The notes beneath the pieces were generated by a model, which was not told where the DNA came from, made no database searches, and saw only the letters and a list, made by a program, of their open reading frames with translations. DNA of 64,000 nt from Pseudanabaena sp. Chao 1811 (lineage in GTDB: Bacteria > Cyanobacteriota > Cyanobacteriia > Pseudanabaenales > Pseudanabaenaceae): positions 4,636,501-4,700,500 of the forward strand of contig NZ_CP101416.1 of NCBI RefSeq assembly GCF_027942295.1. Reading direction: 5' to 3'. The translations under genes were made by a program, and so were the position numbers. Positions 55,905 through 61,961 of this stretch are shown here, in pieces; positions within the stretch are counted from its first letter, which is position 1; every line of letters begins with the position of its first letter.

Positions 55905-57059
55905 ATGCAGGAATATATTGTCCAAGCTGGAGACACACTTTCTAATATAGCTAGGCGATTTTTGGGCACAAATGGAGATTGGCGCGAGATTGCAAGGATT
56001 AATAACATTACGAATCCTGCAAGTTTGCAAATTGGTCAGCGCTTACTGATTCCTAATCCTGCTACACCACCGATCGCCCAAAATCCTGAAGTGGCGATGG
56101 TGCGAAATACCTTGCAGGGAGTTTATCCGCACAATAAGATTGCGATTTCCTTTACGACGGTAGGCAGTGATCTGATCGCAAATTTGCTCAATACTGGTCA
56201 GCAGGAGCGATTTGCCAAAACTAAGGATCTGGGACTGTATCGGTTCGGCATTTTTAAGCTGCGTGATTTCATTATCTATGGCTCTGGGTTGCTGCAACAG
56301 TTGCAAATGAGTCCCTCAGAAATCAATGTGATGTTGGTAACGTCTGCTAATGAAGGAAGTCTCGATGCCATTAATACTTGGGACAATCAATATTTGAGTT
56401 TTGGTATCTTTCAATGGACATTAGGCTCCGCAGGACAAGCTGGTGAGTTACCTGCTTTGTTGAGTAATTTAAAAAGACGGTATCCTACGGAGTTTCAGTA
56501 TTATTTTGGACAGTTTGGCGTAGATACCATATCAATGGATGGCGTGACGGGTTGGCTTTCCCTCAATGGCAAACAACTTGTTAACGCTGCGGATAAAAAC
56601 ATTATGCGTCAACCGATTTGGGCATTACGTTTTGCGATCGCAGGTATGGATGCGTTAGTGCAGTCAGTCCAAGTTCTCCATGCAATTTCTCGACTCGATC
56701 AGTTCTATTTTCGACCCTCCCAGACGTTGCAGGGATTTGCGCTTTCGCAGTTACTCACCTCCGAGTTTGCCGCTGCTCTGTTACTTGATCACCATGTCAA
56801 TCGCCCTAGTCATGTGATTGGTTGTGTGGCGGATGCGATCGCGCGATCGGGGTTAACGGCTGCTCAGATTGCTCAAGGTTCTGGCGATAATGAGGCTTTA
56901 ATCATTCAAAATTATTTGATTTTGCGTGAAACCTATGGTGGAGCAAATGCGATGACCAAATCACGGGAACGTGCTGAGTCAATTAGAAAGGCGATCTCCA
57001 CTGGCAATCTCTCACCGCAAAGGTTTTCGTTCCGTTCTAATCGCCAAGTAAGAGTTTAA
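55905..57059 (+). CDS. LysM protein with lysozyme-like C-terminal region
   Basis: A 384-residue protein. Residues 1-51 are a full LysM peptidoglycan-binding motif (YIVQAGDTLSNIARRFLG, IARINNI, LQIGQRLLIPNP). The remaining about 320 residues are unrecognised but contain TSANEGSLDAINTWDNQYLS followed by FGIFQWTLG, a Glu-Gly and SxGIFQW pattern reminiscent of soluble lytic or lysozyme-like folds in phage and contractile-injection systems. No signal peptide. Probably a wall-binding hydrolase, but the catalytic part is inference. It ends next to the integron region. Confidence 0.65.
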   Translation: MQEYIVQAGDTLSNIARRFLGTNGDWREIARINNITNPASLQIGQRLLIPNPATPPIAQNPEVAMVRNTLQGVYPHNKIAISFTTVGSDLIANLLNTGQQERFAKTKDLGLYRFGIFKLRDFIIYGSGLLQQLQMSPSEINVMLVTSANEGSLDAINTWDNQYLSFGIFQWTLGSAGQAGELPALLSNLKRRYPTEFQYYFGQFGVDTISMDGVTGWLSLNGKQLVNAADKNIMRQPIWALRFAIAGMDALVQSVQVLHAISRLDQFYFRPSQTLQGFALSQLLTSEFAAALLLDHHVNRPSHVIGCVADAIARSGLTAAQIAQGSGDNEALIIQNYLILRETYGGANAMTKSRERAESIRKAISTGNLSPQRFSFRSNRQVRV

Positions 57060-57164
57060 GCTCTTAGCCTACAATTTATTGCAAAGCTAAACTTCTCAAA
57101 CACACTTTTACATTGGATTAACTCGCTCTACGCGATCGGCGATCAGACTGCTTAGGAAATTTTA

Positions 57165-57234
57165 GCCTAACGACTCAAATCAGCGACTCAGCACCAACGG
57201 CTCTCAATTGTCCGCTGCATTTGAATTGTTGGGC
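57165..57234 (-). repeat. attC recombination site of an integron cassette
   Basis: Read on the minus strand this 70 bp site starts with R'' GCCCAAC and ends with R' GTTAGGC, which fit the RYYYAAC and GTTRRRY consensus. Behind R'' comes AATTCAAATGCAGCG, and before R' its near complement CGCTGATTTGAGTC, giving L''/L' pairing with one unpaired G in the L'' arm: the extrahelical base that directs bottom-strand recognition. The site lies 23 bases past the stop of the last gene of the unit, in the normal cassette orientation. This is the key evidence for a genuine integron. Confidence 0.85.
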
Positions 57235-57257
57235 ATACGATCACAAGGTAGATACAG

Positions 57258-58190
57258 CTATTGCTGCTTAGATATACTGTTGATACGAAGTGCCATTGCG
57301 GCAGCCATCATGATAACAAGTGTTGTATGGTAACAAGCAAGAAACTTACGCCGCTGTGGTGAGTCTTTGTCAGTGTATAAGAAAGTTCCTGCTCCATCTG
57401 GCCCAGTAACAGAGCCATCTTCACATTGATTTTCAAGCACAGCAACCAATGGATGTTCAAAAGAGCTGCAAAAGCCGCTACCAACACAGCTCCAAATCAT
57501 AGCGAGTTCCCCTGCAACATCATTGTTGCAATCAGAAATAAAGACATTAGTCCAATACGGAATCCATATTCTTAAATAGGAGATAATACGCTGACTTCGA
57601 AGCGGACGAAACCCAAAATCCGATAGATAAAAAACTTCATGGGTGATTGCGTATGCAACTTCTGCAGATACAACCCATGGTTCTGGACATGCTTCGACGT
57701 AGAGACTAGCACGCCAAGTAGTTGGTCGTTTAGACAAACCAAGCTGCCACAAATTGTAATAGAGCGCAAGATGGGACCAAGGTTGCAGTGGCAACACTTT
57801 TGCCATGTCAGATTGAGATAACATTTTGAGGACGGCATGCAACCTCTTCGAGCGGTATCCGAGTTTGTACAAAGATGCATAGAACGCACAGCAGGGAAGA
57901 AAGTCGTTTCTTGCCAGTAGAAGGTGAGTTAAGTACTGACCATGATCGCACTCCTGCCACATCCATTTAGCTATCTCATCGAGTATAGGCAGTTGAACTC
58001 CACATCGCTTGAGGAGCCAAACGGTAAGTGCCAGCTCTGAAATTGGTTTTATTCGTGTAATATCTTGCTCGGAAGATACTACCTGTCGTCCACGATTGAT
58101 CGAAAACTCCTGCAATTGGCTGCTAACCCATGCCAACCCAAGCAACAAACTCCTTTTTAGGAACGAATCAAACACTAGGGAATCGTTCAT
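57258..58190 (-). CDS. DUF6895-like protein, third gene of the integron cassette
   Basis: A 310-residue helical protein. Segments such as EVAYAITHEVFYLSDFGFRP and the closing CEDGSVTGPDGAG with FLACYHTTLVIMMAAAMAL resemble the DUF6895 family of actinobacteria, and the helical pattern suggests an alpha/alpha toroid-like fold. Function unknown. Start at ATG 58190 makes an ATGA overlap with the stop of the preceding gene; a longer reading adds 14 residues. No HIP1 octamer occurs in it, unlike neighbouring chromosomal genes. The attC site follows directly. Confidence 0.75.
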   Translation of the reverse strand: MNDSLVFDSFLKRSLLLGLAWVSSQLQEFSINRGRQVVSSEQDITRIKPISELALTVWLLKRCGVQLPILDEIAKWMWQECDHGQYLTHLLLARNDFLPCCAFYASLYKLGYRSKRLHAVLKMLSQSDMAKVLPLQPWSHLALYYNLWQLGLSKRPTTWRASLYVEACPEPWVVSAEVAYAITHEVFYLSDFGFRPLRSQRIISYLRIWIPYWTNVFISDCNNDVAGELAMIWSCVGSGFCSSFEHPLVAVLENQCEDGSVTGPDGAGTFLYTDKDSPQRRKFLACYHTTLVIMMAAAMALRINSISKQQ

Positions 58191-58747
58191 TTCACTTGAA
58201 GCACTGTTCTCTCCCATTCCAAATCTATGCACCTTGAAAGCTTCGATAGAGTTTCCAAAACAATTTTAGTTTGGCGGAGTAGTTGCGCTGCCGAACTAGT
58301 CCAAGAACCTGATCTCATAAATTTTGAAAGGACAAACTGCCAGCGCAAAATATCAACAGATGATAGCGTTTTTGCTGCATCAGATAGCGCATACATACAT
58401 TCAACAGCACCGCATGTAAACTCGAACCCACATAGGTTAAGGCGCGAAGCAAGAAATGAGCCAAGCTCTGTGGGAAAAACTTCGATCTGCATGCCATGTT
58501 CCTCTGTAACAAGCAGCAACTCAAAGTACTGAATACAACTAGACGGTGCAACTAAGCTAATATCACAATCAATAACTTTGGCTTGCCCAATTCGCCTAGC
58601 CAGAATCATTGAATCAATTTCTATCTCAAGCTTCCGAAGTTCGGAGTTAGACGACAGGAGTTGCTTGGACGACAGGAGTTGCTTAAAAATTCTTTTTGAA
58701 GGATCTTTCCTGCTTGATCCTATACATCTGCGGGTAACCATAGGCAT
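58187..58747 (-). CDS. Unknown protein, second gene of the integron cassette
   Basis: A 186-residue protein not recognised. N-terminal Arg/Lys-rich part, then an exact 18-base direct repeat (58650-58667 and 58668-58684 region) encoding QLLSSK and QLLSSN, then a mixed alpha/beta region (IGQAKVIDCDISLVAPSSCI, LLLVTEEHGMQIEVFPTELG) and a helical C-terminus. It starts 3 bases after the stop of the first gene and overlaps the third by 4 bases, so the three are one translational unit. Confidence 0.68.
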   Translation of the reverse strand: MPMVTRRCIGSSRKDPSKRIFKQLLSSKQLLSSNSELRKLEIEIDSMILARRIGQAKVIDCDISLVAPSSCIQYFELLLVTEEHGMQIEVFPTELGSFLASRLNLCGFEFTCGAVECMYALSDAAKTLSSVDILRWQFVLSKFMRSGSWTSSAAQLLRQTKIVLETLSKLSRCIDLEWERTVLQVK

Positions 58748-58750
58748 CTT

Positions 58751-59143
58751 CTAGGATGGTAAATTATTCAACCTAGCTGGCAATGCCTCCAGCTTTACAC
58801 AGTGCAAGCAGAAATCACATACAGTTGCGACGAGTTCTCCTCGTGTGCCTAGCCGAACACCAAGCTCTCGAATGCTTTCAAACTCATCAGTGGTTAAATA
58901 TTGACTCGCAGGACCATTCATACCTCTCTCTTGACTGTGGCGATGCTCCTCATCCGTAACGACCAAAACTGGATTTTGACTAAAAAGCTTTAGAACAGTT
59001 CTTCGCTGTTCCTCAGTCATCGGTACTCTATCTAGATCAAAGTTAATGAAAACACTATCTTCGTTACCAAGAGCGACATAGTGAGAAACCTTGGAACGAA
59101 GAGCAGACCGAAGCTGAACTTTTTCAGACATATTGTCATTCAT
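58751..59143 (-). CDS. Unknown protein, first gene of the integron cassette
   Basis: A 130-residue protein not recognised. It contains SVFINFDLDRVPMTEEQRRT, a middle ELGVRLGTRGELVATVCDFC with a CDFCLHC cysteine cluster, and ends LEALPARLNNLPS. The cluster could bind metal or form disulfides. Start at ATG 59143 is supported by GTGAGG 7 bases upstream; GTG 59155 is an alternative. It is closest to the integrase-side candidate attI core (59188-59194). Confidence 0.65.
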   Translation of the reverse strand: MNDNMSEKVQLRSALRSKVSHYVALGNEDSVFINFDLDRVPMTEEQRRTVLKLFSQNPVLVVTDEEHRHSQERGMNGPASQYLTTDEFESIRELGVRLGTRGELVATVCDFCLHCVKLEALPARLNNLPS

Positions 59144-59187
59144 GGGAAACCTCACTTAGATATAACCATTTATCTGAAATCATACTC

Positions 59188-59440
59188 ACCTAACGAAACC
59201 TGGTCAGATCAGTTAACAGAAATTGATGTTACGCCCTCTACGTTAAGAAAGTATGCCTAACTATGTATTAGACGGAAAATTTCTGTCTAATCTGACTATA
59301 GGGGATATAGGCTGAAAGTCAAATTTCTGTCTATATCCCCTATAAGGGACGTTATGCAGAAAAATTCTGTCTATTTACCTTATAAGGGATGTTATACAGA
59401 AAAATTCTGCCTAATCACCTAAATGGCGTGTTAGCCCGAC
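59188..59440 (-). other. Candidate attI region with near-40-bp direct repeats
   Basis: Between the integrase start and the first cassette gene. On the minus strand two cores fit GTTRRRY: GTTAGGC (59255-59261) and GTTAGGT (59188-59194); the latter is 45 bases before the first cassette ATG, typical for a cassette junction. Four direct repeats carry TTCTGYCTA at 59281, 59325, 59365 and 59405 (spacing 44, 40, 40) and GTTATGC/GTTATAC-like boxes at about 59350 and 59390, reminiscent of the weak integrase-binding repeats of attI1. Exact boundaries are uncertain. Confidence 0.55.
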
Positions 59441-59483
59441 GATATCATGTATTATTTAGGCTAGTTGCTTCATTATTTCATTT

Positions 59484-60455
59484 ATGCAAACTGAGCTACA
59501 ACCTCGGAAATTGCTAGATAGAGTCAGGGATCGCATACGGATTAAGCATTATTCCTCCCGCACCGAAGAAACCTATGTGCAGTGGATCAGACGGTTTATT
59601 TTGTTTCACAACAAGCGGCATCCTAGCGAGATGGGCGGCGATGAAGTCAATGACTTTTTGACCCATTTGGCAGTCAATGAAAACGTTGCTGCATCAACGC
59701 AAAATCAAGCCTTGAGCGCTATTTTGTTTCTATATCGAGAAGTCTTAGAACTTGAGTTAGGTCTTAACCTTGATGCAGTAAGGGCAAAGCGTCCCCGTAA
59801 CTTACCGACAGTCTTAACTGTTGCAGAAATTTTAGAAATCTTAAATAATCTTACAGGTACTTATCAGATTATTGCTAAGTTACTATATGGTTCGGGATTA
59901 CGATTAAATGAGGCGCTACAACTGCGCGTGAAGGATCTGGACTTTGCTCAGCAACAAATAATTGTCCGTGATAGCAAAGGCATGGAAAGCCGAGTTACGA
60001 TGTTACCTCGCAATGTGATAGAACAACTTCAAGAACATTTACAAATTGTTAAACGTACTCATCAACAAGACCTAGCTAGAGGTTATGGTGAAGTGAATTT
60101 ACCATTTACTTTGAACGAAAAATATCCCAATGCATCAAAAGAATGGATTTGGCAATATGTATTTCCTTCTAGCACGATCGCTAAAGATCCCCATAGTGAA
60201 TTAATGTGCCGCTATCATATTCATGAAACTGGTATCCAAAAGGCATTAAAACAAGCTGTAAAGTCCGCCAAGATCGAAAAACGAGTTGGCTGTCATACCT
60301 TTCGTCACAGCTTTGCCACGCATTTGTTACAGAATGGCTATGACATTCGCACGGTGCAAGAATTACTGGGACACAAGGATGTGAAGACAACGATGATTTA
60401 CACCCATGTGCTAAATCGTGGTGGGAAAGATGTAATTAGCCCCCTCGATTTCTAA
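59484..60455 (+). CDS. intI: Integron integrase (IntI-type tyrosine recombinase)
   Basis: A 323-residue tyrosine recombinase of the integron class. Catalytic residues: Arg140 ([14 protein letters not shown]), Lys165 (DSKGMESR), His271-Arg274 ([10 protein letters not shown]), His297 (LLGHKD) and Tyr306 (MIYTHV). The IntI-specific insertion is present at about 205-232 ([20 protein letters not shown]), absent from XerC/D. The following [15 protein letters not shown] is a variant of the usual DPRSG..RRHH. Full length and intact, so probably active. It is divergent from the cassette genes, as in classical integrons, and a MITE-like element lies 7 bases past its stop. Confidence 0.95.
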
Positions 60456-60461
60456 AGGAAG

Positions 60462-60566
60462 TATAGCGGTTTTCAAATGAGTACACACTCATTTGAAAAC
60501 AAAAAATCAGTCCCATTAAGAGTTTTGAGTTTTCATTTTGCCTACGGCAAAATGAAAACCGCTATA
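60462..60566. repeat. 105 bp MITE-like element with TATAGCGGTTTTCAA ends (copy 2)
   Basis: Left end TATAGCGGTTTTCAAATGA and right end TGAAAACCGCTATA; an inner CATTTTGCC..GGCAAAATG hairpin is next to the right end. Same ends as the 178 bp element at 37404-37581. It starts 7 bases after the integrase stop codon. Confidence 0.82.

Positions 60567-60629: not shown

Positions 60630-61961
<1,332 letters not shown>

Follow-up and report, generated by a model that had tools for sequence, protein, structure and literature searches.

Integrons are best described in proteobacteria, as the initial annotation of this locus noted, but cyanobacteria have also been listed among their carriers (PMC2426708, 2008; PMC9668308) and a covariance model for cyanobacterial attC sites exists (PMC8352920). 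An integron in a cyanobacterium is thus not a surprise. Our literature search, which was partial in coverage, returned no paper describing a Pseudanabaena integron. The locus described here is a new example of the cyanobacterial integrons published since at least 2008, and leaves the list of phyla known to have integrons unchanged.

In the window (the whole 64-kb stretch of DNA that was analysed, from the single 4.73-Mb contig of genome G000), we identified the elements that define an integron, namely an IntI-family integrase, an attI site adjacent to intI and at least one attC site bounding a cassette (Table 1). The locus is almost certainly a small single-cassette integron residing in the Pseudanabaena chromosome. 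In the proposed mechanism, IntI would bind double-stranded attI beside its own gene together with the folded bottom strand of attC, cut the AAC/GTT core and join the two sites, so that circular cassettes would go in at attI and could be excised again. Here, one 2.1-kb cassette lies between attI (59262) and its own attC. We infer this choice of strand, as well as the expression of the cassette genes from a promoter lying toward intI.

Table 1. Features of the Pseudanabaena integron and its chromosomal flanks, in window positions.
Feature	Position	Strand	Length	Evidence
LysM-domain gene, chromosomal flank	55905-57059	+		PF01476; orthologues in 23/26 genomes of the genus
Chromosomal flank past attC (LysM gene 3' end and spacer)	56837-57164	+		joined directly to attI in G020
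attC	57165-57234	- (cassette orientation)	70 bp	covariance model, fold, likeness to Calothrix attC
Single gene cassette, three genes	57171-59261	-	2091 bp	attI and attC positions, exact cassette-free junction in G020
Cassette gene 3	57258-58232	-	324 aa	DUF6895, PF21836 (E 1.4e-51)
Cassette gene 2	58187-58747	-	186 aa	no family
Cassette gene 1	58751-59155 (alternative start 59143)	-	134 aa	no family; C-terminal ...CDFCLHCVKLEALP
attI core (simple site)	59256-59274	-		conserved in 12 related sites; similarity to relatives ends here
Remainder of attI region, iterated ~40-bp palindromic units	59275-59445	-		repeat search, fold, conservation
intI, integron integrase, intact	59484-60455	+	323 aa	TIGR02249, 2a3v match, tree
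ahcY, adenosylhomocysteinase, chromosomal flank	60630-61955	-		TIGR00936 (644.6 bits); 25/26 genomes of the genus

The locus shares with the superintegron of Vibrio cholerae (VchIntIA, 2a3v) the integrase family and its insertion, an attI site beside intI, and attC-bounded cassettes that read away from intI. It differs in having one cassette rather than a large array, and about half of the integrase residues are identical between the two. Like the class 1 and class 3 mobile integrons it has an intI gene divergent from the cassettes; unlike them, it is chromosomal, has no transposon or plasmid context and carries no resistance gene. Its IntI clade, chromosomal place and mixed gene content are those of the chromosomal integrons of cyanobacteria, from which it is set apart by its single three-gene cassette and by an attC that is 17 nt shorter. 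On a plasmid of Calothrix brevissima (AP018211.1:56410-68454, L197), an attI-like core is followed by a pentapeptide-repeat cassette with an attC. This attC belongs to the same family as that of the window and the attI core ahead of it is similar, but the Calothrix attC is 87 bp long with a full loop and the gene is a different one.

The initial annotation described a full-length recombinase with the catalytic residues and the IntI-specific insertion, and staked its reading on this protein being an IntI rather than a Xer protein; our analyses agree with it on both counts. The intI product scored 470.1 bits against the NCBIfam model integrase_gron (TIGR02249; cut-off 265), and 149 and 142 bits against the XerC and XerD models, below their cut-offs of 335 and 330. 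Its best PDB match was V. cholerae IntI4/VchIntIA (2a3v, E 1.5e-93). The six catalytic residues (R140, K165, H271, R274, H297 and Y306) are all present, and the IntI-specific insertion was found at residues 210-229 in a gap-free alignment. In a tree containing relatives, one class 3 IntI and Escherichia coli XerC and XerD, the protein sits among cyanobacterial IntI sequences, beside the G021 copy and apart from the E. coli proteins. Full-length copies of intI in eight relatives are 85-93% identical to the window gene, and the named relatives of the protein at 86-93% identity are mostly from Pseudanabaena. No cyanobacterial LexA box was found upstream of or near intI.

Two IntI subclades, about 75% identical to each other, occur in the genus. 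One intact intI of each subclade is present in G023 (C1:3533915 and 4478348) and likewise in G025, and the second-subclade intI of G012 also lies near ahcY, with a radA-like gene (identified by eye) in between. Right after the window intI is a 105-bp element (60462-60566) that is bounded by 14-bp inverted repeats (TATAGCGGTTTTCA) and has two hairpins within it. It matches another location in G021 over part of its length and resembles a small repeat element.

The attC site stands well clear of background under an attC covariance model. The initial annotation had reported a 70-bp site fitting RYYYAAC/GTTRRRY, with pairing boxes and an unpaired base, and had proposed that an attC model be used to check it. 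The site reads GCCCAAC...GTTAGGC on the minus strand. The fold of its bottom strand, which is the plus strand of the window, has an energy of -12.1 kcal/mol (z -2.5) and leaves one base of the 3' arm extra-helical. It is the sole site in the 64 kb that passed a scan for RYYYAAC/GTTRRRY plus pairing arms, and no site with a fold of -12 kcal/mol or lower turned up when the window was randomly resampled 30 times (first order). A covariance model was built from 28 attC sites from other genomes, with the window attC left out of training. This held-out model gave the window attC 31.8 bits (E 5.7e-6 over 64 kb) and the runner-up site 9.6 bits, as against 50-90 bits for most attC sites of the relatives. 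The covariance model was used for the relatives in place of the strict RYYYAAC/GTTRRRY scan, which overlooked most of their true attC sites. A search of Rfam gave no match; to our knowledge, Rfam holds no attC family.

In its loop and arm sequence the window attC is like the other cyanobacterial attC sites found here, and it is 91% identical over 45 bp to the attC on the Calothrix plasmid. Alignment indicates that it corresponds to a cyanobacterial-type attC of ~87 bp minus 17 nt of loop, which is why it is short. Being shortened and lower-scoring, it may recombine poorly. As there is a single cassette, the window integron has no array in which attC similarity within the locus could be seen.

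To locate the attI site, which the initial annotation merely implied, we compared the region with 12 related attI sites of the Pseudanabaena type, in which the core is nearly identical. On the minus strand the core consists of an L-like box (GTCTAAT), a spacer (ACATA) and an R box (GTTAGGC). The sequence past the GTT varies between genomes, leaving a conserved core of GTCTAATACATA followed by GTTRRRY, and blastn similarity of intI and attI to the relatives ends at 59252-59257. The crossover points fall between 59262 and 59261 at attI and at 57171/57170 on the attC side. The simple site of attI1 has the same layout, its L-like box being inverted and 5 nt away from GTTAGGC. The two sites differ in their repeats, which are direct in attI1 and palindromic units of ~40 bp in the window.

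Copies of the palindromic unit, with the pattern ATTAGAC..GAAA/TTTC..GTCTAAT, lie between intI and the attI core at 59277-59316, 59321-59360 and 59361-59400. The repeats are kept in the 12 related sites of the window's IntI subclade; they are not evident in the attI of G012, which belongs to the second subclade. The DNA from 59260 to 59400 is strongly self-complementary (fold z -6.95). We detected no compensatory changes in 31 pairs of the palindromes, and there is therefore no support for a folded attI beyond the symmetry of the sequence. The repeats could possibly be accessory integrase sites or an operator.

The comparison of sister genomes proposed in the initial annotation revealed that cassette content differs among them. 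The order ahcY, intI, cassettes, LysM gene is common to three genomes (G000, G020 and G021), and the flanks of G020 and G021 are 96.5% and 92% identical to those of the window. In G020, attI (GTTAGGC followed by TAAAATTTCC) runs directly into the flank, which is the predicted product of excision; the predicted cassette-free junction for the window is ...CATAGTTAGGC joined to TAAAATTTCC. When the attI side of the window and the sequence past attC were joined in silico, the product gave a 571-bp unbroken match to G020 (89.8% identity). In G021 this place is occupied by different genes beside an intact intI, the last attC being at 9226-9311 of L035, and in G023 the covariance model found 21 attC matches beside an intI of that genome. 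By sequence, then, the cassette-free junction of G020 and the other content of G021 mark the cassette as a mobile unit, and the integron, chromosomal and at a place common to relatives, is of the sedentary chromosomal kind. Other relatives have intI at other places, and therefore inheritance has not been purely by descent at one place. No pre-integron empty site was found, in that relatives without intI never showed ahcY adjoining the LysM gene.

That attI and attC sites have recombined recently in this lineage is well supported, because cassette content turns over among the sisters. The initial annotation had called the integron working or recently working; recent turnover is seen among the sisters, and present-day activity is what we infer. 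We consider it unlikely that the platform has stopped recombining, leaving the three genes fixed as passengers. The intI gene is truncated at the G020 locus and present as fragments in several other relatives, which would fit such a fossil, but the window intI is intact with all its catalytic residues and retains high identity to the full-length copies of the eight relatives. Similarly, the single cassette, its shortened attC, and the stray lone attC-like sites and intI scrap elsewhere in the genome are weighed against perfect core sites and a cassette content that varies between sisters with 92-96% identity in their flanks. The G020 junction itself may predate the truncation of its intI. With one integrase, one cassette, and relatives in which the site is empty or differently filled, the locus represents a clean, nearly complete natural experiment and a convenient system for testing integron activity in cyanobacteria.

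The cassette genes point away from intI, and the divergent genes that the initial annotation placed beside the recombinase were recovered as three minus-strand ORFs. One gene per cassette is generally the most common arrangement, but it is very improbable that the three genes represent two or three separate cassettes that were once divided by attC sites now lost to decay. Gene 3 overlaps gene 2 (58187-58232) and 3 bp separate gene 2 from gene 1, leaving no space for an attC; there is no inner match to the covariance model; and a 1.19-Mb plasmid of Cupriavidus oxalaticus carries the same three genes with their order unchanged. An 18-bp tandem duplication, in frame and with copies 94% identical, was observed within cassette gene 2 at 58647-58682.

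Over the aligned parts, the Cupriavidus homologues are 59% (gene 1), 40% (gene 2, 90 aa) and 54% (gene 3) identical to those of the single three-gene cassette. No cyanobacterial-type attC was found around the Cupriavidus copy. Among 292 cyanobacterial genomes, the DUF6895 protein had a match, a weak one, in one other genome. From these sequence comparisons the three-gene unit would appear to have arrived from outside, and the cassette ties a cyanobacterium to a betaproteobacterial plasmid, the shared unit having a DUF6895 gene among its three. Nothing exceeded the cut-off for genes 1 and 2 in Pfam and NCBIfam, and no relative of the DUF6895 protein was found among solved structures. According to its title, a 2026 paper (reference 371 of PMC13352647) identifies a DUF6895 protein as an epimerase in lasso-peptide modification. 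Guessing from this report, the three genes might form an operon for peptide modification that acts on the product of gene 1, a suggestion that we make tentatively and think somewhat less probable than its alternatives.

We give virtually no credence to a Xer-like or phage-type tyrosine recombinase lying by a fortuitous hairpin and an operon that has nothing to do with it: IntI and Xer have a catalytic domain in common and single hairpins do arise by chance, but this reading is refuted by the family score, the held-out attC model, the tree and the natural excision product in G020.

The arrays of both sisters that share the locus also contain a second, truncated copy of the LysM gene 3' end and spacer (L052:3690-4024 in G020 and L035:8511-8694 in G021). 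These copies start at the cassette crossover point, and an attC then follows. The chromosomal flank may be in the course of being made into cassettes in this lineage, with its palindromic iterated attI, although we regard this as doubtful. If true, the LysM-end copies and the iterated attI would be a natural record of cassette birth from ordinary chromosomal DNA.

Elsewhere in the window's genome, the covariance model identified four further attC-like sites. One of them (C1:954514; 25.8 bits) has a 90-bp scrap resembling intI ~0.5 kb away, at 955132, and the two (together C1:954514-955221, L207) are probably the remains of another integron in the same chromosome. The other three are lone sites at C1:1878619-1878707 (L208; 39.1 bits), C1:3369584-3369670 (L209; 34.9 bits) and C1:4717535-4717623 (L210; 24.7 bits), beside which no integrase was found. 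ORFs that look by eye like transposase genes are located near the first two of these lone sites.
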